DNA from: Chloroflexota bacterium
GTDB taxonomy: Bacteria; Chloroflexota; FW602-bin22; JACPRP01
Direction of reading: 5' to 3'
Assembly (NCBI GenBank): GCA_016210495.1
Contig: JACQUC010000129.1
Location: 1-64,000 of the forward strand
DNA: 64,000 nucleotides
Made by a program: the position numbers and the translations under genes
Notes under the pieces: generated by a model
What the model was told of the DNA's origin: nothing
Seen by the model: only the letters and a program-made list of their open reading frames with translations
Databases searched by the model: none
Part shown: positions 4,811 to 17,694 of the stretch, piece after piece
Layout: each line of letters opens with the position of its first letter
How positions within the stretch are numbered: position 1 is the stretch's first letter

Positions 4811-5137
4811 GTGGCAAGTTATCTGCTCGTTAATAGTCGCGACCTGCACGAGTACGTGGGGGCCCGATCCGTGCTGGACCTCGCCGCGCAGCTTCGGGCC
4901 AGGGGAAACCCGGTTACTCTCTTTCTTGTCGAGAACGCGGTCTTCGCCGCCCGTCAGGGCTCTCGCCTGAACCAGGATCTCGAAGAGCTTACCGATAAGG
5001 GCGTACGCGTCGTCGCCGAGGATGTCGCGCTGCGGGCGCGCGGCATCACCACGTTGTCACCCGCCGTGGCCCAGTCCAACATCGACGAGCTGGCGGACCT
5101 GGTGGTCGACGGGTCCGACAAAGTCATCTGGTATTAG
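4811..5137 (+). CDS. DsrE-family sulfur-relay protein (1)
   Basis: 108 residues starting at a GTG preceded by AAAGGAGG at ideal spacing; the frame runs further upstream but no site supports an earlier start. The fold pattern is that of the DsrE/DsrF/TusBCD family: a first strand (SYLLVNSRDLHEY), a helix (LDLAAQLRARG), a strand (VTLFLVENAV), and a final strand SDKVIWY. This class carries persulfide or acts as a scaffold in cytoplasmic sulfur transfer. I see no cysteine at all, so this copy probably plays a structural or partner role (as TusB/TusC-type subunits do). It is the first gene of a six- to seven-gene sulfur-trafficking operon. Confidence 0.75.
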   Translation: MASYLLVNSRDLHEYVGARSVLDLAAQLRARGNPVTLFLVENAVFAARQGSRLNQDLEELTDKGVRVVAEDVALRARGITTLSPAVAQSNIDELADLVVDGSDKVIWY

Positions 5138-5594: not shown

Positions 5595-5984
5595 ATGGCC
5601 GATAAGGTTCTGGTTATTCTGGAAAAACCGATCTATCTGAGCTTCGAGCCTGTCGATCCGCACCTCTTTGCCACGGCCTTCGGCGTCGCGGATACGCCTG
5701 TCGAGATCGGCGTTCTATTGCGAGACTCCGCCGTCAACTACGCCGTCAAAGACCAGGACACGCGGAACGTGCGCATCGCCGGGCTCGACGTCCTCGAGGT
5801 CGACGTGACGCCCGCTAAGATGATCGAGTTCATCCTGCGCCACGGCGCCTCGGTAGCTGCCAGCGGTGACGACCTGGCGGCGCGCGGCATCGATCCTTCC
5901 GACCTGGTGGATGGAGTAAAAGTGATCGGACGCGAGGACCTGGCGAGCCTGGTGGAAGAGAACGATGCCGTCGTCGTCTGGTAG
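5595..5984 (+). CDS. DsrE/TusC-like protein (3)
   Basis: 129 residues. The strand-helix pattern (KVLVILEKPIYLS, VEIGVLLRDSAVNYAV, KMIEFILRHGASVAASGDDLAARGI, final strand NDAVVVW) matches the DsrE/F fold, in particular the non-catalytic type. No cysteine is present. It lies 20 nt after the cysteine-bearing paralogue and overlaps the following TusA-like gene by 20 nt, which indicates translational coupling. It probably forms a hetero-oligomer with the two preceding paralogues, by analogy with TusBCD and DsrEFH; this is inference from gene order. Confidence 0.7.
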   Translation: MADKVLVILEKPIYLSFEPVDPHLFATAFGVADTPVEIGVLLRDSAVNYAVKDQDTRNVRIAGLDVLEVDVTPAKMIEFILRHGASVAASGDDLAARGIDPSDLVDGVKVIGREDLASLVEENDAVVVW

Positions 5985-6222
5985 GCCACCCGCCGCCGCG
6001 ACGCTCGACATCCGGCCTCTGTTCAATCCCATCGACTGCACCAGCCTGGGGGTGGTCAGGCTTCATCTGAAGAAGCTTGACCCGGGTGATGTGCTGGAGG
6101 TGCTGGCCAATCGCTTTCAGCAGCAGGAGGTCCGCGCCTGGGCCAGGAAATTCGGCCACCCTATTGTGGGCGAGCTCGACGAGTCCGGCCTGGTAACCAT
6201 CTATCTGAAGAGGGGTACCTGA
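5965..6222 (+). CDS. TusA-like sulfur carrier without CPxP prolines
   Basis: 85 residues with the SirA/TusA pattern: LDIRPLFNPIDC with the sulfur-carrying cysteine, then a helix, the conserved LDPGDVLEVLAN strand, a second helix (EVRAWARKFGH) and the final strand GLVTIYLKRG. Canonical TusA has CPxP after the strand; here it reads CTSLG, so both helix-capping prolines are gone while the cysteine is kept. Starts inside the previous gene. Expected to shuttle persulfide sulfur to or from the DsrE-like subunits encoded next to it. Confidence 0.75.
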   Translation: MPSSSGRPPAAATLDIRPLFNPIDCTSLGVVRLHLKKLDPGDVLEVLANRFQQQEVRAWARKFGHPIVGELDESGLVTIYLKRGT

Positions 6223-6224
6223 TA

Positions 6225-6644
6225 GTGCAGAAGATAGCTATCATCGTCGGCAACGGCAGCTTCAACAACATCGTACTGCTCTGCACGCTGATCGCCGGCC
6301 TCGTCTCGGCATTCGACACCAGGGTTCGCGTGTTCTTTCGGGATGAGGCGCTGCTGAAGCTGACCAAGGATCACATCGACGAGATCAACTTCTCCGAGGC
6401 CTTCAAGGGTCTGGAAGAGCAGGCCGTCGAGCGTCTCCAGAAGTCCGATTTCACCGATCTTCGCAGCTTCCTGCGCCACGCCAAAGAGCTCGGCGAGGAC
6501 GTCAAGTTCTACGGCTGCCGCTCTTCGCTTTACATAATCGGCGCCGACGAGGCCGACCTGATCCCTGAGATCGACGAGGTCACCAGCGTGTCCCGTTTCA
6601 TCCTGGAGGAGCTTGCCGACGCCGACAAAGTGCTTACGTTCTAG
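6225..6644 (+). CDS. DsrE2-like protein (4)
   Basis: 139 residues, GTG start. It begins KIAIIVGNGSFNNIVLLCTLIAGLVSA and has a second half with VKFYGCRSSLYIIGADEADLIP, resembling DsrE2 proteins, where a cysteine precedes a short helix (CxxSxxxxG) and helps carry sulfur. The end ADADKVLTF matches the other DsrE copies of the operon. DsrE2 proteins are usually associated with TusA and rhodanese in sulfur transfer and may be membrane-bound; the hydrophobic stretch at residues 13-28 is short and could instead be the buried first helix. The repeat-containing gap downstream may end this transcriptional unit. Confidence 0.7.
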   Translation: MQKIAIIVGNGSFNNIVLLCTLIAGLVSAFDTRVRVFFRDEALLKLTKDHIDEINFSEAFKGLEEQAVERLQKSDFTDLRSFLRHAKELGEDVKFYGCRSSLYIIGADEADLIPEIDEVTSVSRFILEELADADKVLTF

Positions 6645-7989: not shown

Positions 7990-8262
7990 ATGGCAGTGGA
8001 AACACTGAAAACCGATGAACTGGATATCGCGGCTACCGTCGATAATCGCGGCATTCCATGCGCGCTGGGGATTTTCAAGGTGATGCGCGAGATGGAGAGG
8101 ATTCCGTCCGGCCGCGTGCTCGAGATCATCAGCACCGACCGCGCCTCCAAGAGGGACCTGGCGAAATGGTGCGGTCGCGTCGGCCACCAGATCCTCTCTG
8201 TCCAGGAAGAGGGCAGTCTGCTGCGCCCGCTACTGCGGATTTGCATACGGAAAGGCGGATAA
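7990..8262 (+). CDS. TusA-like sulfur carrier (second copy)
   Basis: 90 residues: VDNRGIPCALGIFKVMREM with the carrier cysteine, PSGRVLEIISTD, KRDLAKWCGRVGH and the last strand LLRICIRKGG. This is the TusA/SirA beta-alpha-beta-alpha-beta-beta pattern. The motif after the strand is CALG instead of CPxP, so, as in the other copy, the prolines are lost. A second cysteine (KWCGR) sits where many TusA-like proteins have W followed by a small residue. The ATG follows AGGGGCAAT, derived from the tail of the adjacent palindrome. Last gene of the plus-strand sulfur cluster; convergent with nadE. Confidence 0.8.
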   Translation: MAVETLKTDELDIAATVDNRGIPCALGIFKVMREMERIPSGRVLEIISTDRASKRDLAKWCGRVGHQILSVQEEGSLLRPLLRICIRKGG

Positions 8263-10208: not shown

Positions 10209-12047
10209 CTATTCGCAAAGAACCTGGCACTCCATGGTCGAGGTCGCTCTCTGGTCCTGTAGCTCGTATACCCCGATGGTCGGTCCCCGACGGCTCGCCG
10301 ATGGCTCGAACTGTGCGAGCAGGGTTGCCTCGGCAAGCAGCCTTTTGTAGAAGACGACCTCGAAGGGATACCGGCTCGCCTCCGCCTGGTACATCGAGAA
10401 CATGCTGGCGCTGATGACCAGATACCGGTAGCCCTCGCGATAGTAATCGTCGAGGGTTCGATCGATGCCCAGCGAATACTGCTCGTACGAGTCGAAGCCG
10501 GTACCATCGAGTGGAGCCGTTTCCCAGTCCTTGGCGATCCGACTGCCGGCCGGCAGGTTCCGTACGATCCATTCCCGCGCAGCCACTCTCGTGCTCGGGC
10601 TTGACTGCCGAATGTCGTGCCGCACCAGCTCGTAGGCGGGCACCGCCGATAGCAGCAGCACCAGGGCAATGGTCACGGCTCTTTCGATCGGTGGCTTCCA
10701 ATCCAGGCGACTCCCCAGCCGCCAAATGATGGCGGTTAGCCCGGCTGCTGCAAACAGCGCAACCACCGGCAATACCTGTATCACCCACCGCTGCCAATGG
10801 ATAAGCGATAGGCTGATTCCCACTAGAAAGGTTACGATGAATCCCGCCAGCAGGACCTGCTCGACGCGATGCCTCCAGGCGGCCAGCACAATGCCGGCCG
10901 CGGCCAGAGCGGCCTGCGCCCAGGTGATATTCTCCGGTATCACGTACGTGACGTACCACAGGAAATTCCTTTGCCGCGAAAAGCCAACCGCGCCCAGGTA
11001 GGTCCCTGCCGCCTCGCGGCCCAGATCGGCCATTACCTTCGAGAAGTCCAGAAAGAAATAGGGCGTCGACAACGCGAAGGCCGCCAAGATCGCGAGCAAG
11101 CCCACGCCAATGCCGGGCCAAATAGGAAGACCTTCCCCCTCACTCGAGCGTAGGGGCGAACGGCCCCATCCACCCAGGCGTAGGGGCGGACGGCCCCGTC
11201 CATCCAGGCGTAGGGGCGGACGGCCCTGTCCGCCCTGAGGAGGCGGGGGATTCGTGCCCGCACGGAGTCGGGCATCCGCCAGGCGCAGTACATAATTCCG
11301 GTACAATATCGCCCCATCCACTGCCACGAACACCGGAATCAACGCGACCATGAAATAGCGCGACGCAATGGCCAGCCCGATTGCCAGGCCAGCCAAAACC
11401 TGATTCCGTGGGGTCAGTCGATCGTATAGGATTAGACACCGCCACAGGCCCAGCAACCCGAAGAACGTAGCAGCGGTGTCCGTCCGCACCACCTGACCGT
11501 ACTGGACCAGTATTGGGTAGAAGACCGTGAGTGAGGCCCCGATGAGTCCGACTCGCTCGCCAAATGCCCGGCGACCCACCAGGTAAACCACGGGAAGGCT
11601 CATCACTCCGTAGAGGACTGTCAGGAGCCGACCCAGCAGGTAGAACTCGCTCGGCCAGGCCTCAAACGTAGTCTGGATGCCTGTATCCGGGCCAAGCCAG
11701 CGCCCACCGTGCGCCAGCGCGTTCCAGATACGATAGACAGGTACAAGCGGATAGATGATCGTGGAGCCAGGGTGGCCGAACCAGCCGGGATTGAGGTCGC
11801 CCGTGGCGGCAATGCGCACGGCCGGTGGCACGAAGTAAGCCTCGTCTACCTCGGGCGCAAACGGAAGATCCTTTTGGATTCCCCAGACGTAGAAGACTAG
11901 CGCGACCACGACGATGCACCCGATTATCCAGCGGCTTGCCGTACTGTGATGCCTTTCTCTGTCGCTTGATGGGAATGAAGACAGTTGTATCGCAGTAGCC
12001 GTTCGCATCAGTCGCTCGACTTTCTCTCCCGTGATCGAACGCCCCAT
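10209..12047 (-). CDS. GT39-like membrane glycosyltransferase with inserted 30-bp repeats
   Basis: 612 residues, about ten to twelve membrane helices. After the first helix the loop has APEVDEAYFVPPAVRI, the acidic DE-type loop of ArnT/PMT (GT39/GT-C) transferases, which use polyprenyl-phosphate sugars outside the membrane. A soluble tail of ~130 residues (RVAAREWIVRNLPAGSRIAKDWE, then ...ISASMFSMYQ) resembles the C-terminal part common in bacterial GT39-like proteins. A cytoplasmic or external loop near residues 270-305 is a Gly/Arg/Pro-rich stretch encoded by three 30-bp repeats, probably a neutral insertion. Alternative start: Met14. The acceptor is unknown. Confidence 0.75.
   Translation of the reverse strand: MGRSITGEKVERLMRTATAIQLSSFPSSDRERHHSTASRWIIGCIVVVALVFYVWGIQKDLPFAPEVDEAYFVPPAVRIAATGDLNPGWFGHPGSTIIYPLVPVYRIWNALAHGGRWLGPDTGIQTTFEAWPSEFYLLGRLLTVLYGVMSLPVVYLVGRRAFGERVGLIGASLTVFYPILVQYGQVVRTDTAATFFGLLGLWRCLILYDRLTPRNQVLAGLAIGLAIASRYFMVALIPVFVAVDGAILYRNYVLRLADARLRAGTNPPPPQGGQGRPPLRLDGRGRPPLRLGGWGRSPLRSSEGEGLPIWPGIGVGLLAILAAFALSTPYFFLDFSKVMADLGREAAGTYLGAVGFSRQRNFLWYVTYVIPENITWAQAALAAAGIVLAAWRHRVEQVLLAGFIVTFLVGISLSLIHWQRWVIQVLPVVALFAAAGLTAIIWRLGSRLDWKPPIERAVTIALVLLLSAVPAYELVRHDIRQSSPSTRVAAREWIVRNLPAGSRIAKDWETAPLDGTGFDSYEQYSLGIDRTLDDYYREGYRYLVISASMFSMYQAEASRYPFEVVFYKRLLAEATLLAQFEPSASRRGPTIGVYELQDQRATSTMECQVLCE
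11148..11236. repeat. Three tandem 30-bp units inside a coding region
   Basis: Units start at 11148, 11178 and 11208 and read GCGTAGGGGCGRACGGCCCC followed by ATCCACCCAG-like ends. The period is a multiple of three, so the frame of the minus-strand membrane protein is kept and a ten-residue repeat (GRPPLRLDGR type) is encoded. The core GTAGGGGCGGACGG is shared with intergenic palindromes of this genome. Confidence 0.85.
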
Positions 12048-12296: not shown

Positions 12297-13193
12297 ATGG
12301 CTTCGTTGCACGCGGTAGTAGACTATCTTGATCGGCAACGCAAGTGGATGCTGGTGGTTCTCGGACTGACCTTGGTCGTTCTTATGGGGATCGTCGACGC
12401 CTGGTCAGGCCCGATTCTGTACGTTTCATCGCCGATCCTCTATTTGTTCCCGATTTTCCTCGTCACTTGGTTTGCCGGCCGGCGTGCTGGCATCTCGGTG
12501 TCTGTGGCCTGCGCCGTCGCAGCGGCGTCGGCAGAGTTTTGGGTCGGGAGCCCGTTTTCTCTTCCCTTCATACCGTACTGGAACGCGGTTGCTAGGTTGG
12601 TGCTCTTCTTGGCGGCAACGTTCATAATATCCGAGCTTCGAGCAGCACTGGACAAACAGCGACAGTTGGCGTGGACGGACTATTTGACGGGGGCTGTAAA
12701 TGCGCGGTACTTTTTCGAGCTCTCCAACGTGGAAATGGACAGAGTGCGGAGATACAGGCATCCCTTCACGATCTTCTACATGGACGTGGACAATTTCAAG
12801 ACCGTCAACGATCGCTTTGGCCATCGCACGGGCGACAGCCTTCTGCGATGGGTCGCCAAAACGCTGAAGAGCCACGTTCGTGCCAGCGATATCGTGGCCA
12901 GAATCGGAGGCGACGAATTCGCCGTTTTGCTGCCGGAAACCGGCTATGAGCAGGCCAAAGCAGTCGCTCCCAGGGTCAACAGCGGCCTGTTAGACGCGAT
13001 GGAAAGAAATCAGTGGCCCGCCACGTTTAGCATTGGCGCGGCCACCTTTATCACAGCCCCGGCATCCGTCGACGAAATGATGGAGAAAGTCGACGCATTG
13101 ATGTACGCCGCGAAGCAAAGCGGCAAGAACATGATCGTGCACGGCGTGTTCGGCGAGACGGCGACGGACGCGGCTAGCGCGACCAGTCGCTGA
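12297..13193 (+). CDS. Membrane-anchored diguanylate cyclase (GGDEF)
   Basis: About 298 residues. Four hydrophobic segments in the first ~130 residues (for example WMLVVLGLTLVVLMGIV and LVLFLAATFIISEL) precede a GGDEF domain: WTDYLTGAVNARYF, FYMDVDNFKTVNDRFGH, and the active-site motif RIGGDEFAVLLPE. The allosteric product-inhibition site RxxD (RASD) is present five residues ahead of the motif. It should make cyclic di-GMP from two GTP at the inner membrane. The start is uncertain: an upstream TTG at 12225 keeps the frame but adds an unlikely leader. The last 20 nt overlap the end of the convergent nifU-like gene. Confidence 0.88.
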   Translation: MASLHAVVDYLDRQRKWMLVVLGLTLVVLMGIVDAWSGPILYVSSPILYLFPIFLVTWFAGRRAGISVSVACAVAAASAEFWVGSPFSLPFIPYWNAVARLVLFLAATFIISELRAALDKQRQLAWTDYLTGAVNARYFFELSNVEMDRVRRYRHPFTIFYMDVDNFKTVNDRFGHRTGDSLLRWVAKTLKSHVRASDIVARIGGDEFAVLLPETGYEQAKAVAPRVNSGLLDAMERNQWPATFSIGAATFITAPASVDEMMEKVDALMYAAKQSGKNMIVHGVFGETATDAASATSR

Positions 13194-13419
13194 CCGCTTC
13201 TACCCTTTTGACCTCTGGAATCTGGTCTCTCAGCGCCGCCTCGACCCCGTTGGCCAGGGTCATTTGCGACATGGGGCAGCCGCCGCACGCGCCCGTCAGC
13301 ATCACGCGCACCACCCCTTCCTCGTCCACGTCCACCAGCTCGACGTCACCGCCGTCGGCCTGAAGGTACGGCCGAATCTCGTCCAGTGCTTTCTCGACTC
13401 GCTGCAACTCGATCATCAC
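13174..13419 (-). CDS. NifU C-terminal domain (Nfu-type Fe-S carrier)
   Basis: 81 residues: the Nfu domain with ALDEIRPYLQADGGDVELVDV and the cluster-binding CxxC in GACGGCPMSQMTL. Such proteins receive and deliver [4Fe-4S] clusters to apoproteins in the cytosol. Preceded by GAGGAGGGA. It is the last gene of a minus-strand operon of Fe-S/nitric-oxide-related genes, which fits a cluster-repair role alongside Mrp and the ScdA_N-like protein. Confidence 0.92.
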   Translation of the reverse strand: MMIELQRVEKALDEIRPYLQADGGDVELVDVDEEGVVRVMLTGACGGCPMSQMTLANGVEAALRDQIPEVKRVEAVSDWSR

Positions 13420-13440: not shown

Positions 13441-13728
13441 CTACCGTTTTGGCTTGTGTCTATCCGCGTCTTTCGCCTCACCGGCGATGTATTCTCCCTG
13501 ATATTTTACCGGATGCATCGCAACCCTGTAGATCCTATCGGCGACCTCCGCCAGCGAGATGCTCTCGTCATAAATGGTCACCTTCGCCGGGCACGGCTCG
13601 AAGTCGCCCTTGTAGTCGAAGCTTATGCTGAACCTCTTGTCGTCTCCCAGACGATAAACTATCGTCTCCGGTCAGCCACTGCATCACATTCCTTCGACGA
13701 CAAGTTGGAACTTGCGGTCGTCGGGCAT
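13441..13728 (-). CDS. Candidate selenoprotein: HMA-like small protein with two in-frame UGA codons
   Basis: ATG preceded by AGGAGGTGTTGGC, 14 nt after the DUF2249 stop; the frame then runs 95 codons to a TAG, 21 nt before the nifU-like gene. It is interrupted only by UGA at codons 15 (13684-13686) and 19 (13672-13674). Around them the protein reads QLVVEGM-UGA-CSG-UGA-PETIVYRLG. This is the HMA metal-binding motif GMxCxxC with UGA at x and at the second cysteine. The remainder (FDYKGDFEPCPAKVTIYD, SLAEVADRIYR) keeps coding-like third-position GC and a strand/helix order compatible with HMA. A strong hairpin follows the second UGA. Selenocysteine insertion is my inference; a pseudogene, or recoding to another residue, is the alternative. 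UGA is a normal stop in neighbouring genes. Confidence 0.5.
13649..13667 (-). promoter_or_regulatory. SECIS-like hairpin after UGA codons
   Basis: On the minus strand AGACGATA-GTT-TATCGTCT forms an 8-bp perfect stem with a G-first three-base loop. The loop lies 24 nt after the first UGA and 12 nt after the second. Flanking CC/GG can extend the stem past a small internal loop. Bacterial selenocysteine insertion elements are stem-loops just downstream of UGA, with a G early in a small apical loop; the first UGA fits the usual spacing, the second is rather close. Confidence 0.4.
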
Positions 13729-13742
13729 GCCAACACCTCCTA

Positions 13743-13982
13743 TTAGGCTACCCTCTTGATGGTCGCCACCCATTCGCGGGGGCCGACTTCGTGGGACTCC
13801 CACTCGAACTGGCCCGCCCGCTCCGCCAAAAACTGATAGTGTAGCGGTCTGGGATCGTGATCGTTGACCAGGCGTATGGCATCGCCCACGCCAAGGCTAT
13901 CGAAGGTATCGAAAATCTTCGGGTGGCGCTCCCAGGGCGGCATTTCTCGCACGTCAAGGGTTATTTCTTTCGGCTCGGTCAT
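13743..13982 (-). CDS. DUF2249 domain protein
   Basis: 79 residues: LDVREMPPWERHPKIFDTFD, LGVGDAIRLVNDHDPRPLHYQF and EWVATIKRVA, the DUF2249 signature. These small proteins are related in fold to TusA-like domains and are found next to nitric-oxide, denitrification and hemerythrin genes; the biochemical function is not established. AAAGGAGTCC precedes the start. It lies between the NnrS-like gene and the UGA-containing gene in the operon. Confidence 0.88.
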   Translation of the reverse strand: MTEPKEITLDVREMPPWERHPKIFDTFDSLGVGDAIRLVNDHDPRPLHYQFLAERAGQFEWESHEVGPREWVATIKRVA

Positions 13983-13998: not shown

Positions 13999-16011
13999 CT
14001 AGTTCTTGCAAGCGTTGTTGAGGTCCGCCAGGAACTCGTCTACGTTTATCGAATGTATGCGACACGCCATTTCGACAGTGACGGTCTTGGCCACCGTCGT
14101 CCGCAGCGTTTCGTCTTTCAGGTGCTCGAACCCGTACCGGACGAATACGTCCAGCGTTTCGGGGTGCTGCTCCACGATTTCGCCGACGATGTGGTTCGCG
14201 ACAATGGGCAATCCGTCGCGAATTTGAGCGGCGGCGCCGTGATGAGAAGCCACCACGTCGGCGATAGCGTTAAGATGGGTAAGCAATGCGTCGAGATCGA
14301 TCTTCTGAATGTTCGCGGCCTGCTCAATGGTCACCGTCTTGGCCAGCACCTCTCGCGCGACCGGATTTCTGAGCTGGCTGAATCCATTCTCGACAAAGAC
14401 TCCCAGCGTCTGGGGGTAGCGTTCGAGCACGTCGGCTACGACCATTCCCTTGGTGATTCTCTTAGGCTCAGGCACGTTGTTCTCCTCCTCGACTTCGGTC
14501 TTGCCCATGGTTTTCCAGATGTTGTAGGCGAAAAGCGCCAGCGCCGTGACCTCGATGAACCCCGAGACACCCATTGTCGCCAGGAACACGCCACCGAAAA
14601 AGTGCGCTAGCGGCTGCGAGGCCACTCTGAGAACGTTGCCGACGTTTATCAAGACGAAGCTCACGAGCAGTATCTGCGAGCTGTGCAGCCTGACGCCGGA
14701 AAAGACCGGGATCACTCGCGAGGCCATGCCCATTATCATCATCGAGATGAAGCCCACGGTCAGCGCGTGTCTGTAGGCACCGACGAAGGCGTGGTCGATC
14801 TCCTGGCCGACTACGACCTCATATATAGCGTACCAGAAGGTCATCGTCGCCGCCACCGCCAGCCACAGGTAGGCAGCCCTTATGAACTTCTCGTACCCTC
14901 GGTCGGCGCCCGTTTCCGCGATATTCACCTCCGGCTTCCGGAAAATGTTCAGGAAATAGATGAAGGCAATAATGGCTGCGTATTCCAGGAGCGATGCTAA
15001 CGGCACCAGTTGCCCGGCCGACTGGACGCCATAGGCGGCAAGCCCGCTCGTGGCCACCTTGGCCACTATGCCCGCGTTCAAGGCCCAGAAGACCCAGGTG
15101 AAAGCCTTCTTGTTCGGGCTTCTCAGTCCCAAGAAGAGCGGGATGGTGCGCAGGCTAATGCCGAAGATCATCATTCCGACGAAGCCGTAGAGGGCGATGT
15201 GCAGATAGGGGTTTTCCAGATCGCCGGGGATGACGTCCAGGGATCTTGTGGCCGCGTAGACCGCGATGCCCAGGGTTGCGGCTGCCAGCACCAGGAACCA
15301 ACCGGCGCTGGCCAGTATGTATTTATCGTAGAAGTCCCTGGGCTGGGCGCTGCTGCCCAGGGTCCGCAGCGTCACATAGACGAAGAAGGACGCTCCTACA
15401 ACCTCCAGGATCGCCGAGAGCACGACGAGCTCGCCGAACGGGTAGATACTGGCCCAAGGCTGCGATACCGTGCGCAGCACCAGGCCGACCAACACCAGCC
15501 AGAACGATGCCTGGGCCAGGGTTTTGCTCTGTAGCTCGGTAGCCTTGAGCCTGGGCAGGACGTGGTAGGCCACGCCCATTATGAACAAGCCTACCCAGCC
15601 GAAAATCTGGGCGTGTCCGTGGGCCTGGGTAATGGCGCCCCACGTGGTGCCGACCGATCCTGCCAGAGCCATATATGCCAGGTTAACGGCTCCGAGGGTG
15701 CAGCCGGCTGTCAGCGCGACTATGATCGCGGTCTTCACGAACGCTCGGTACACCTCGGTTTGCGGCCCGCCGCCCTGCGGCGTGGCGCCGGTCCGGGATG
15801 CACCTGCCCTGGCGACCTCGTTCAGCTCCTGCAACAACGCTTCGGCGTCGACGTTGTGTACAGTTGCAAAAAACGAGATGGGCTCCATCGGTCCCTTTGG
15901 CCCCCCGCACCCCGTGAGGCCGTGTTTGTTGAAGACCATCTGAGCTTCCGGATATCTGGTTATTACTTCACGCACTGTCATCGTGCTGTTGATTACTCCG
16001 TTATCAGCCAT
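13999..16011 (-). CDS. NnrS-like membrane protein fused to three DUF1858 domains
   Basis: 670 residues. Residues ~8-65 are a DUF1858 domain (MTVREVITRYPEAQMVFNKH, with the redox-type cysteine in GLTGCGGPKG). Then about a dozen membrane helices with NnrS-like histidines (TQAHGHAQIFGWVGLFIMG; YHVLPRL; YRHALTVGFISMMIMGMASR), followed by two more DUF1858-like repeats (VVADVLERYPQTLGVFVENG; IVGEIVEQHPETLDVFVRYG) that lack the cysteine. NnrS proteins are heme- and copper-containing and protect against nitric-oxide stress. The start follows TTAGGAGGTCG. Triple DUF1858 plus NnrS is an unusual domain combination; it fits the surrounding Fe-S/NO genes. Confidence 0.85.
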   Translation of the reverse strand: MADNGVINSTMTVREVITRYPEAQMVFNKHGLTGCGGPKGPMEPISFFATVHNVDAEALLQELNEVARAGASRTGATPQGGGPQTEVYRAFVKTAIIVALTAGCTLGAVNLAYMALAGSVGTTWGAITQAHGHAQIFGWVGLFIMGVAYHVLPRLKATELQSKTLAQASFWLVLVGLVLRTVSQPWASIYPFGELVVLSAILEVVGASFFVYVTLRTLGSSAQPRDFYDKYILASAGWFLVLAAATLGIAVYAATRSLDVIPGDLENPYLHIALYGFVGMMIFGISLRTIPLFLGLRSPNKKAFTWVFWALNAGIVAKVATSGLAAYGVQSAGQLVPLASLLEYAAIIAFIYFLNIFRKPEVNIAETGADRGYEKFIRAAYLWLAVAATMTFWYAIYEVVVGQEIDHAFVGAYRHALTVGFISMMIMGMASRVIPVFSGVRLHSSQILLVSFVLINVGNVLRVASQPLAHFFGGVFLATMGVSGFIEVTALALFAYNIWKTMGKTEVEEENNVPEPKRITKGMVVADVLERYPQTLGVFVENGFSQLRNPVAREVLAKTVTIEQAANIQKIDLDALLTHLNAIADVVASHHGAAAQIRDGLPIVANHIVGEIVEQHPETLDVFVRYGFEHLKDETLRTTVAKTVTVEMACRIHSINVDEFLADLNNACKN

Positions 16012-16023
16012 CGTATCGACCTC

Positions 16024-17109
16024 CTAAGAAGCGCTGGCCGCCGACGCAGCAGGTTCGTGATTCAATTCGTGTAGCAGGCTCACCCGTGCCGCCACCGTTT
16101 CGGCTAGTTGCACAAACGCCTGGGCCTGGGCGGATTCGGGAGCCGCGTCGACTACCGGCTCTCCCTCGTCGCCGCCCAATCTAATGCTCTTGTGTAGCGG
16201 AACGCGTCCGAGGAACGCAACCCCGAGCCGTCTGCTGGCGTCCTCGCCGCCGCCGTCGCCAAAGATATCGGCGTGATCCCCGCAGTTAGGACACACGTAG
16301 TAGGCCATGTTCTCGACGATGCCCAGGATGGACACCGAAAGCTTCTTGAACGTTATGAGGGACTTCCTGGCATCCAAGAGGGCCACGTCCTGTGGCGTTG
16401 TGACTATTACCGCGCCCGTGAGCGGTATGGTCTGCGCCAGCGTCAGAGACGCGTCGCCCGTCCCCGGTGGCAGATCGACGATCAGGTAGTCCAGGTAGCC
16501 CCAGGCCACCTCGCTCAAGAACTGCTGAATGGCCCTGGTGACCATCGTCCCTCGCCATATCACGGGCGTATCGTTGTCGGCGAAGAAGCCGATGGACATC
16601 AGTTTCACGCCATAGCTCGTGACCGGCAACATCTTCCCCTGGTTCGCGCCCGGCTTTTCGGATGTTCCCATCATCAGCGGGATGTTCGGCCCAGTGATGT
16701 CGGCATCCAGGAGGCCGACCTGGGCTCCGGTTCGGGCGAGGGCCACGGCGACGTTCACGGCGACGGTGGATTTGCCGACGCCCCCCTTGCCGCTGGCAAT
16801 GGCGATGATGTTGCGAATGCCTTCGACAGGCAGATTCGTCTGGCCCAGGCTGCCTTTGACCTGGGCGACGACGTCGATGTCCACGTGGTCGACCCCCGGA
16901 ATCGCTTGTACTGCGGATCTGGCCGCCTCGGTGATCTGGTGCTTCAGCGGGCAAGCCGGAGTCGTCAGCACCAGCTTGAAACTCACCTTGGAGTTTTGCA
17001 CCTGTAGCTCGCGTATCATATCCAGCGAAACGAGGTCCCGCCCGATCTCCGGATCGATGACCGTTCGCAGTTTACCCAGAACCTGTTCCTCGGTTGGCAG
17101 CGAATTCAT
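16024..17109 (-). CDS. Mrp/ApbC-family Fe-S carrier ATPase
   Basis: 361 residues from ATG (AAGGAG upstream); a longer frame exists but has no support. The N-terminal MIP18/DUF59 domain (VLGKLRTVIDPEIGRDLVSL) is followed by a P-loop ATPase of the MinD/NBP35 group: ASGKGGVGKSTVAVNVAVAL, DADITGPNIPLMMG, YLIVDLPPGTGDASLTLAQT, and the C-terminal cysteine pair YVCPNCGDHADIFGDGGGE that binds a bridging [4Fe-4S] cluster in dimers. It assembles or transfers Fe-S clusters in the cytosol. It sits between ferredoxin and NnrS-like genes, 12 nt before the latter. Confidence 0.93.
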   Translation of the reverse strand: MNSLPTEEQVLGKLRTVIDPEIGRDLVSLDMIRELQVQNSKVSFKLVLTTPACPLKHQITEAARSAVQAIPGVDHVDIDVVAQVKGSLGQTNLPVEGIRNIIAIASGKGGVGKSTVAVNVAVALARTGAQVGLLDADITGPNIPLMMGTSEKPGANQGKMLPVTSYGVKLMSIGFFADNDTPVIWRGTMVTRAIQQFLSEVAWGYLDYLIVDLPPGTGDASLTLAQTIPLTGAVIVTTPQDVALLDARKSLITFKKLSVSILGIVENMAYYVCPNCGDHADIFGDGGGEDASRRLGVAFLGRVPLHKSIRLGGDEGEPVVDAAPESAQAQAFVQLAETVAARVSLLHELNHEPAASAASAS

Positions 17110-17155
17110 TTGCACACGAAAACTCCTTGGAGTAGCCCGACGCGATGGGAACGAG

Positions 17156-17365
17156 CTATCCCTCGACCAATATGTCGTATGGGCAGGTGATGGCCCCCGT
17201 TGGGCAGGCTGCTTCGCATTCCCCACAGTAGTCGCACTCCACCGACTTGGTGATGGCGACCAGGTTGTCCACCATCGTAAGGGCGTCAACCGGGCACGCG
17301 GGAATGCAACTGGCACAGCCGGTGCAATCCTCTTCCACGATCACGGGAGTTAGATTTGCGTACAT
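17156..17365 (-). CDS. 2[4Fe-4S] ferredoxin
   Basis: 69 residues with two CxxCxxCxxxCP motifs: DCTGCASCIPACPVDAL and ECDYCGECEAACPTGAI. A small electron carrier, cytosolic. Start chosen at MYANLTP, which has GGAAGGAAG in front; an ATG twelve codons upstream is less likely. It lies between the ScdA_N-like gene and mrp and could supply electrons to the NO-related membrane protein or to Fe-S repair. Confidence 0.9.
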   Translation of the reverse strand: MYANLTPVIVEEDCTGCASCIPACPVDALTMVDNLVAITKSVECDYCGECEAACPTGAITCPYDILVEG

Positions 17366-17432
17366 CTCGATACTTCCTTCCAGGCACACAGACCAAAGCA
17401 AGGTCGCTGTTCCTGCGACATTGAACAGCGTA

Positions 17433-17496: not shown

Positions 17497-17694
17497 CTAG
17501 CTTGCTGCTGTGGTGAGCTCGGTGAGCAGTTTCTCCAGCTCGACCCCGGCGATGCGAGCTCCATCGCGAATCTTTCGGAAGCCACCGCAGCAGGTATCCA
17601 CTCCATATCTGACGAACACGGTCTGGGCCTTGGGATACTTACGCAGCGTCTCGTCCACGGTCATATCGGGATTGATATCGATGGTGTTGACCAT
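17497..17694 (-). CDS. ScdA_N/DUF1858-like protein
   Basis: 65 residues: MTVDETLRKYPKAQTVFVRYGVDTCCGGFRK region (CCGG motif), then GVELEKLLTEL. This is the N-terminal domain of RIC/ScdA (YtfE) di-iron proteins, which repair Fe-S clusters damaged by nitric oxide, here as a stand-alone unit without the hemerythrin-like domain. Related in sequence to the DUF1858 domains fused to the NnrS-like protein of the same operon. Starts after AGGAGGTTAGAT; probably the first gene of the operon. Confidence 0.85.
   Translation of the reverse strand: MVNTIDINPDMTVDETLRKYPKAQTVFVRYGVDTCCGGFRKIRDGARIAGVELEKLLTELTTAAS

Follow-up and report, generated by a model that had tools for sequence, protein, structure and literature searches.

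A candidate gene with two conserved in-frame UGAs and overlapping hairpins points to a double-selenocysteine protein of HMA fold in Chloroflexota

Selenocysteine (Sec) has been described in several kinds of prokaryotic metal-handling protein. Table 1 of a 2026 review (PMC13188914) includes NF041115 (UxxU_metal_bind), a metal-binding protein and putative mercuric reductase with the motif UxxU and two Sec; MbdU (NF045648), a metal-binding double selenoprotein with the motif CU and two Sec; a Sec-containing cation-transporting ATPase E1-E2 (UxxC); and a putative mercuric transport protein (C/SxxU). According to the same source, the loops of most bacterial selenocysteine insertion sequences (bSECIS; SECIS) lie at a distance of 16-37 nucleotides (nt) from the UGA and have, at loop position 1 or 2, a G whose next base is often G or U. 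The subject here is a frame on the minus strand of a 64,000-nt stretch of Chloroflexota DNA (contig JACQUC010000129.1, positions 1 to 64,000, termed the window throughout). Judged from its sequence, 13441-13728 very probably forms a single intact gene, encoding a selenoprotein of 95 residues and HMA (heavy-metal-associated; ferredoxin-like) fold, with two UGAs read as Sec in a G-(M/L)-Sec-Cys-x-Gly-Sec loop. This reading is preferred because both UGAs are conserved, purifying selection acts past them, Sec machinery is present in the genomes of relatives, and the overlapping hairpins are conserved.

Read from 13728 to 13441, the frame translates as MPDDRKFQLVVEGM, UGA, CSG, UGA, PETIVYRLGDDKRF and onward to HKPKR and a terminal TAG, the only internal stops being the two TGAs at codons 15 (UGA1) and 19 (UGA2). 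The position of UGA2 is what we take to be that of the second Cys in the GMxCxxC motif of HMA domains. A first-pass annotation, made from the letters alone, had described a 288-nt frame interrupted at GM-UGA-CSG-UGA, with its own AGGAGG-type site, spacings of 14 and 21 nt, 76 residues beyond the second UGA, poor internal starts and coding-like codons downstream, and each of these particulars was recovered from the minus-strand sequence. The 14 nt separate the frame from the end of the upstream DUF2249 open reading frame (ORF) at 13743, and the 21 nt from the GTG (13419) of the downstream NifU-domain ORF. The frame is without a good internal start, since the first in-frame ATG, GTG or TTG past UGA2 is the GTG of codon 50. 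Codon log-likelihood per codon is 0.124 over residues 20-95; 13 other ORFs of the window average 0.114.

Three further Chloroflexota homologues were read as DNA (L001, L107/L119 and L108/L120). At 60-68% identity, all three keep both UGAs, with no unrelated residue at either place of the kind that the first-pass annotation had named as evidence against Sec. Thus both UGAs are present in 4/4 copies, the motif being G-(M/L)-U-C-x-G-U throughout, with the HMA position kept and the second Cys replaced by UGA each time. The L001 locus belongs to a groundwater Chloroflexi metagenome-assembled genome (MAG; G001, about 3.5 Mb) and was found through its NnrS-like neighbour, 59% identical there; the operon has the same order, and a 66%-identical frame with both TGAs lies between DUF2249 and NifU. 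A profile search of a second Chloroflexota class gave copies in genomes G422 and G428, reading LIVEGM-UGA-CHG-UGA-VETIVYRL and LIVDGL-UGA-CLG-UGA-TTTIGYRL, respectively. The copy at L120:3888-4175 (minus strand) has GL in place of GM before UGA1 and starts at GTG, not ATG. Over codons 20-95 the window and L001 copies differ at 14 first, 11 second and 34 third positions, giving nonsynonymous (dN) and synonymous (dS) rates of 0.18 and 1.38 by NG86 and of 0.19 and 1.03 by YN00, i.e. a dN/dS of 0.13-0.18. The protein is under purifying selection downstream of both UGAs and, with the two stops shared by all four DNA copies, the earlier view that they are not the product of random decay is borne out.

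Protein databases hold the family only as fragments. A search with Cys substituted at both sites (5.8 billion proteins) gave no match, while a two-row profile found four relatives and a six-row profile, scoring the best 7996 candidates by shared words, at least 16. All 16 relatives listed are annotated as fragments that start past the second UGA; in eight of these the annotated start immediately precedes YRL, NRL or HRL, and P0008 is marked partial. The list includes the window's own fragment (P0013), that of L001 (P0010) and P0006, whose sequence matches that of L107/L119; the DNA of the 13 others is not among the copies read. The fragments P0001-P0012 and P0014-P0016 have 48-72 residues, e.g. 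EPO21_00650 and Q7O66_18780. Among the matches listed in three protein searches there was no full-length homologue with Cys at the UGA sites.

The gene is sparsely distributed in Chloroflexota. It was found in one of 400 genomes drawn across the phylum, in one of 13 genomes of the order of G001 (with two chance matches besides) and in one of 29 of its class, the one being G001 in every case; in the second class it occurs in 2/393 genomes. None was found in three genomes of a third class or in the 16 genomes of other loci, and the viral contigs searched held no relative. Among the best 80 of 146 loci brought in by a neighbour gene, with up to 6 kb on either side, only L001 has the gene. Two weak matches were set aside as chance: that in G114, from the phylum-wide set (E 0.0076, 18.4 bits, residues 42-90), where three-frame reading showed no gene of this kind and the profile had no match in the genome, and likewise that in G122 (E 0.08), again without a profile match.

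In an AlphaFold2 model made with Cys in place of Sec (pLDDT 92), the chain follows the beta-alpha-beta-beta-alpha-beta order of the HMA fold, in which the residues before the UGAs form strand 1, and continues into an additional C-terminal strand and helix. Structure matches to aIF2 alpha, PII and others were set aside as reflecting the common ferredoxin-like arrangement; HMA chains rank above them in the VIA lists. The likeness to HMA domains first suggested from the motif therefore stands for the predicted fold and not at the level of Pfam, where PF00403 gives 10.7 bits for the L119 copy (cut-off 24.8) and no match for the other three. With HMA domains (PF00403; CopZ, Atx1, MerP, and the metal-binding domains of ATP7A/B) the protein shares the fold and the position of the GMxCxxC loop; it differs in falling below the Pfam cut-off, in having Sec at two places and in the modelled C-terminal extension. 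Models of MerTP and CopZ are also matched weakly.

The first-pass remark that a double-Sec HMA-like protein in an NO/Fe-S operon would be new needs one correction: a double-Sec metal-binding family, NF041115 (UxxU), is already listed in Table 1 of PMC13188914. Like it, the present family consists of small proteins of metal-binding type whose motif region carries two Sec, and the four copies weakly match the first 20-40 positions of its model (15.3, 13.8, 12.3 and 11.7 bits; cut-off 95). However, NF041115 has UxxU and a model of 74 positions, whereas the present family has UCxGU in 4/4 copies, keeps the first Cys and is 95 residues long. MbdU is likewise metal-binding with two Sec, but its motif is CU rather than U-C-x-G-U; NF045648 gave no match listed up to E 10 for the four copies, in a HMMER search whose filters drop most weak matches. 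The E1-E2 ATPase and the mercuric transport protein are similar in having Sec in CxxC-type motifs of metal handlers, and differ in being transporters with one Sec each. The motif U-C-x-G-U is absent from the 119 prokaryotic selenoprotein families and subfamilies of the review's Table 1, some rows of which give no motif. On sequence comparison this is apparently a new family, a variant of the double-Sec metal-binding/HMA-like proteins. Its new features are the operon, the placement of Sec as U-C-x-G-U and the overlapping hairpins, which the first-pass annotation did not mention.

Sec machinery was looked for in the genomes of relatives, selB in three and selA and selD in one, and the search asked for by the first-pass annotation had a divided outcome: the protein genes were found, and tRNA-Sec was not found in the searches of G001 (below). 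All three gene-carrying genomes have selB above the NCBI cut-off (G001, 385 bits; G422, 355; G428, 327, or 348 with its in-frame neighbours). In G001, selA lies one ORF away from selB and scores 587 bits, and selD (L104; G001:C41:1465-2388) scores 381 bits, both above cut-off. The ORF adjoining selB at L122 is not selA. The selD gene itself has an in-frame TGA, in ALSHGAG-TGA-ACKLGP, a context that fits the selenophosphate synthetase motif UxxK as given in PMC13188914. A hairpin of 8 base pairs (bp) with a 3-nt loop is predicted past this TGA.

A bacterial SECIS has to sit just downstream of its UGA. Directly 3' of UGA2, AGACGAUA and UAUCGUCU form a stem capped by GUU (hairpin 1), the core of which, GACGAU/AUCGUC, is invariant in 4/4 copies. 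Its apex lies 24 nt past UGA1 in three copies, and about 12 nt past UGA2; in L107 the closing pair is lost, leaving a 5-nt loop with G second, 23 nt past UGA1. Because of these distances, set against the 16-37 nt of bSECIS, hairpin 1 fits UGA1 and not UGA2. Hairpin 2 has the form UCGUCU-GNN-AGRCGA, with loops GGG, GGA, GUC and GGC that start 23 nt past UGA2 in all four copies. Its 5' arm is the 3' arm of hairpin 1 (arm B), so that the two hairpins are mutually exclusive. Among the database fragments, P0008, P0012, P0014 and P0015 are NRL/HRL variants, in which arm B must be made up of different codons. A G in the first two loop positions at 16-37 nt is found in hairpin 1 for UGA1 and in hairpin 2 for UGA2. 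As in a described bSECIS, each is a stem-loop within coding sequence whose small apical loop has G at its start; the difference is that this gene has two arm-sharing hairpins, one proposed per UGA. No precedent for an overlapping pair of bacterial SECIS was found in a narrow search of the open-access literature.

In the 291-column alignment, with stems that touch gaps excluded, the only 6-bp stems with 3-8-nt loops paired in all four copies are hairpins 1 and 2; at 5 bp, two further fully paired stems occur elsewhere. When codons were resampled with amino acids fixed, both stems arose in 0.25-0.86% of versions per sequence and hairpin 2 alone in 1.4-9.0%, and none of 3000 resampled alignments had a conserved 6-bp stem. 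Sliding controls had 17-71% (hairpin 1) and 25-72% (hairpin 2) of cells paired, as against the 100% observed. Within residues 22-27, which encode hairpin 1, codons are identical at four of five invariant residues, compared with 5/30 further on (Fisher p 0.010, tested after the hairpin had been seen). Codon 28 encodes Gly, Glu, Ser and Ala in the four copies and always has A as its third base, which is what pairing of the 3' arm of hairpin 2 (arm C) requires. The stability of hairpin 1 by itself is only mildly unusual, being equalled by 201, 155, 461 and 540 of 5000 synonymous versions of the four copies.

From these features it is proposed, tentatively and at only a little short of an even chance, that each UGA is served by its own SECIS and that the overlapping hairpins, made of three arms, are switched by ribosome translocation. 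With UGA1 in the A site, SelB would bind hairpin 1 (arms A:B). As the ribosome advanced four codons to UGA2, arm A would enter the mRNA channel and free arm B, which could then pair with arm C to form hairpin 2, serving UGA2. In a folding model that assumes 9 nt past the A-site UGA to be held by the ribosome, the mean pair probability of hairpin 1 with UGA1 being read is 0.97, 0.99, 0.12 and 0.90 (window, L001, L107 and L108, in this order), and that of hairpin 2 with UGA2 being read 0.75, 0.26, 0.89 and 0.87. On this model the switch is plausible, depending on the length of mRNA that the ribosome covers, and binding of SelB may shift the balance between the hairpins.

The neighbours of the gene are given in the Table. 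DUF2249 is near the gene in all four loci and adjacent in three. At L119 the gene comes right after one for a hemerythrin; this protein matches the YtfE/RIC repair proteins for iron-sulfur (Fe-S) clusters best in NCBIfam, at scores far below their cut-offs. L119:9861-18602 also holds DUF542, NnrS-DUF1858, DUF2249, cytochrome c, a COX1-family subunit and a FixG-like protein. At L001:10718-12601 there is a gene for a hybrid-cluster protein (HCP; Prismane), convergent with the operon and separated from NifU, on its downstream side, by about 0.7 kb. A role in nitrosative stress is suggested by the neighbours NnrS, DUF1858/DUF542, DUF2249, Mrp, ferredoxin and NifU, together with the hemerythrin or HCP gene of relatives; from these, it is quite possible, if somewhat short of probable, that the protein helps to protect or rebuild Fe-S or other metal centres. 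Less surely, the Cys16/Sec19 pair and Sec15 might bind a soft metal or act as a redox pair.

Table. Positions of the candidate gene, its signals and its neighbours in the window
Feature	Position	Strand	Basis or remark
Candidate selenoprotein gene, 95 codons + TAG, two in-frame UGA	13441..13728	-	sequence; homologues L001, L107/L119, L108/L120 with both UGAs
AGGAGG ribosome-binding site	13736..13741	-	sequence
UGA1, codon 15, x of GMxCxxC	13684..13686	-	in 4/4 DNA copies
Cys16, first Cys of the HMA motif, still Cys	13681..13683	-	4/4 DNA copies
UGA2, codon 19, at the place of the second Cys in the HMA motif	13672..13674	-	in 4/4 DNA copies
Hairpin 1, core GACGAU/AUCGUC, apical GUU; proposed SECIS for UGA1	13650..13666	-	loop 24 nt past UGA1
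Hairpin 2, UCGUCU-GGG-AGACGA; proposed SECIS for UGA2	13640..13654	-	loop 23 nt past UGA2
Protein with a NifU-like domain (Fe-S carrier type), next gene downstream	13174..13419	-	
DUF2249 protein, next gene upstream, as it is in L001 and L120	13743..13982	-	
NnrS/COX1-like membrane protein; domains: ScdA_N and DUF1858 (hybrid-cluster-protein-associated)	13999..16011	-	
Mrp/ApbC-type Fe-S carrier ATPase (limits of the listed ORF; the real start is probably further downstream)	16024..17316	-	
4Fe-4S dicluster ferredoxin	17156..17401	-	
DUF542/ScdA_N small protein	17497..17694	-	

Elsewhere in the window, small plus-strand ORFs at 5965-6222, 6225-6644 and 7990-8262 presumably encode TusA/DsrE-like sulfur-relay proteins. 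A glycosyltransferase-like ORF (PMT_2; 10209-12047, minus strand) contains the in-frame low-complexity repeat RPPLRLDGRGRPPLRLGGWGRSPLR, which looks like an insertion into the gene. A codon-bias scan for a second UGA-interrupted gene gave a single weak TGA candidate, near 5057 on the minus strand; the scan excludes nothing, because its thresholds would miss the 13441-13728 gene itself (the 14-codon head scores 2.4, the limit being 4).

Three other accounts of the interrupted frame were considered. Two stops within one short frame might suggest a pseudogene or sequencing error, yet the identical stops recur in four different genomes and the dN/dS is that of a selected protein, which leaves this account a negligible chance. 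Termination at UGA1 or UGA2 followed by downstream reinitiation would yield two short products and make the 46-72-residue annotations the real protein, as gene callers have it in 16/16 listed relatives; we consider this extremely unlikely, as codon 24 reads GTT, GGT, GTG and GGT in the four copies and offers no common start just past UGA2, and as K6, L9, V11 and G13, ahead of the UGAs, are conserved and form part of strand 1 in the model. Reading of UGA as some other amino acid, through genome-wide reassignment or a special suppressor, is very unlikely. Global reassignment was rejected since TGA is the ordinary stop of 6/13 window ORFs, and the selA, selB and UGA-containing selD of G001, as well as the place of UGA2 at the presumed second Cys of the HMA motif, speak for Sec. 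What lends that account some weight, and counts against the two-Sec interpretation, is that tRNA-Sec was not located. A covariance search of G001 (150 of 448 candidates scored) gave 13 matches, none over the cut-off, the four best that were checked being serine, serine, tyrosine and threonine tRNAs; a pattern search of G001 gave three matches, none a tRNA; and ARAGORN, run on 1.56 of the roughly 3.5 Mb of G001 (100 contig pieces) together with L099, L001 and L104, called 15 tRNAs and no tRNA-Sec. Nor was one found beside selB, and in the 64-kb window no tRNA was called and no Rfam family reached its gathering score. To the same side belong the location of the machinery found, in relatives' genomes, and the size of the evidence base, four DNA copies.

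The hairpins and the role of the protein admit of rival accounts that carry more weight. A single hairpin 1 could serve both UGAs, at 24 and 12 nt, the pairing of arm C being incidental; this is a real possibility, although we think it rather the more doubtful side of the question. All four 50-nt stretches taken from UGA1 have hairpin 1 in their minimum-energy fold, it dominates three of four 45-nt stretches, and arm C resembles arm A, so that B:C pairing could stem from a repeated motif. Yet 12 nt is below the 16-37 nt range of most bSECIS in PMC13188914, and arm A begins about 4 nt past UGA2 and should therefore be melted by the ribosome. Arm C (AGRCGA), moreover, is kept while the encoded residues vary, the constant third-base A spanning four amino acids, and the loop of hairpin 2 begins G-G or G-U in 4/4 copies. 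Telling against two functional, switched hairpins are several results. No compensatory double change is seen in either stem, hairpin 2 having one U-A/U-G alternation, and for this reason a column-shuffle control is uninformative. When identical residues are forced to a common codon, an extreme of relatedness, at least one stem appears in 173/3000 alignments and at least two in 14/3000, and RNAfold z-scores of the region against dinucleotide shuffles, -0.5 to -1.3, are unremarkable. The switch fits three of four copies per state, L107 (hairpin 1, 0.12) and L001 (hairpin 2, 0.26) being the exceptions; if only 6 nt are taken to be covered at UGA2, the values for hairpin 2 are 0.80, 0.07, 0.11 and 0.27, and it wins in the window copy only. 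As to function, the main rival is a protein that simply carries or detoxifies a soft metal (Cu or Hg), like MerP or NF041115 proteins, and merely happens to lie in a nitrosative-stress operon. The metallochaperone fold and motif and the weak MerTP and CopZ matches agree with such a role, which we regard as possible but on the unlikely side, for no mer gene or metal transporter was found among the neighbours scanned, a subset of ORFs comprising 7 operon or adjacent and 10 other window proteins, 10 of L119, 6 of L120 and 3 of L001. The CopD model has a match to one protein of the window, near 7 kb, slightly under the cut-off (31.3 vs 32.1 bits). Against the nitrosative-stress role it must be said that the assignment is drawn from neighbour genes, and that at L120 tblastn, run with 12 window proteins, placed DUF2249 alone next to the gene and found none of the 10 others tested.

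The family has been invisible as a protein family because the databases searched annotate headless fragments only. A two-Sec protein of this kind would add to the HMA fold a placement of Sec both beside and at the metal-binding cysteines. If the switch is true, a translocation-driven exchange of SECIS would explain how bacteria decode closely spaced Sec codons, here UGAs 12 nt apart. If the role suggested by the operon is true, selenium would be tied to the Fe-S and nitric-oxide genes of Chloroflexota.
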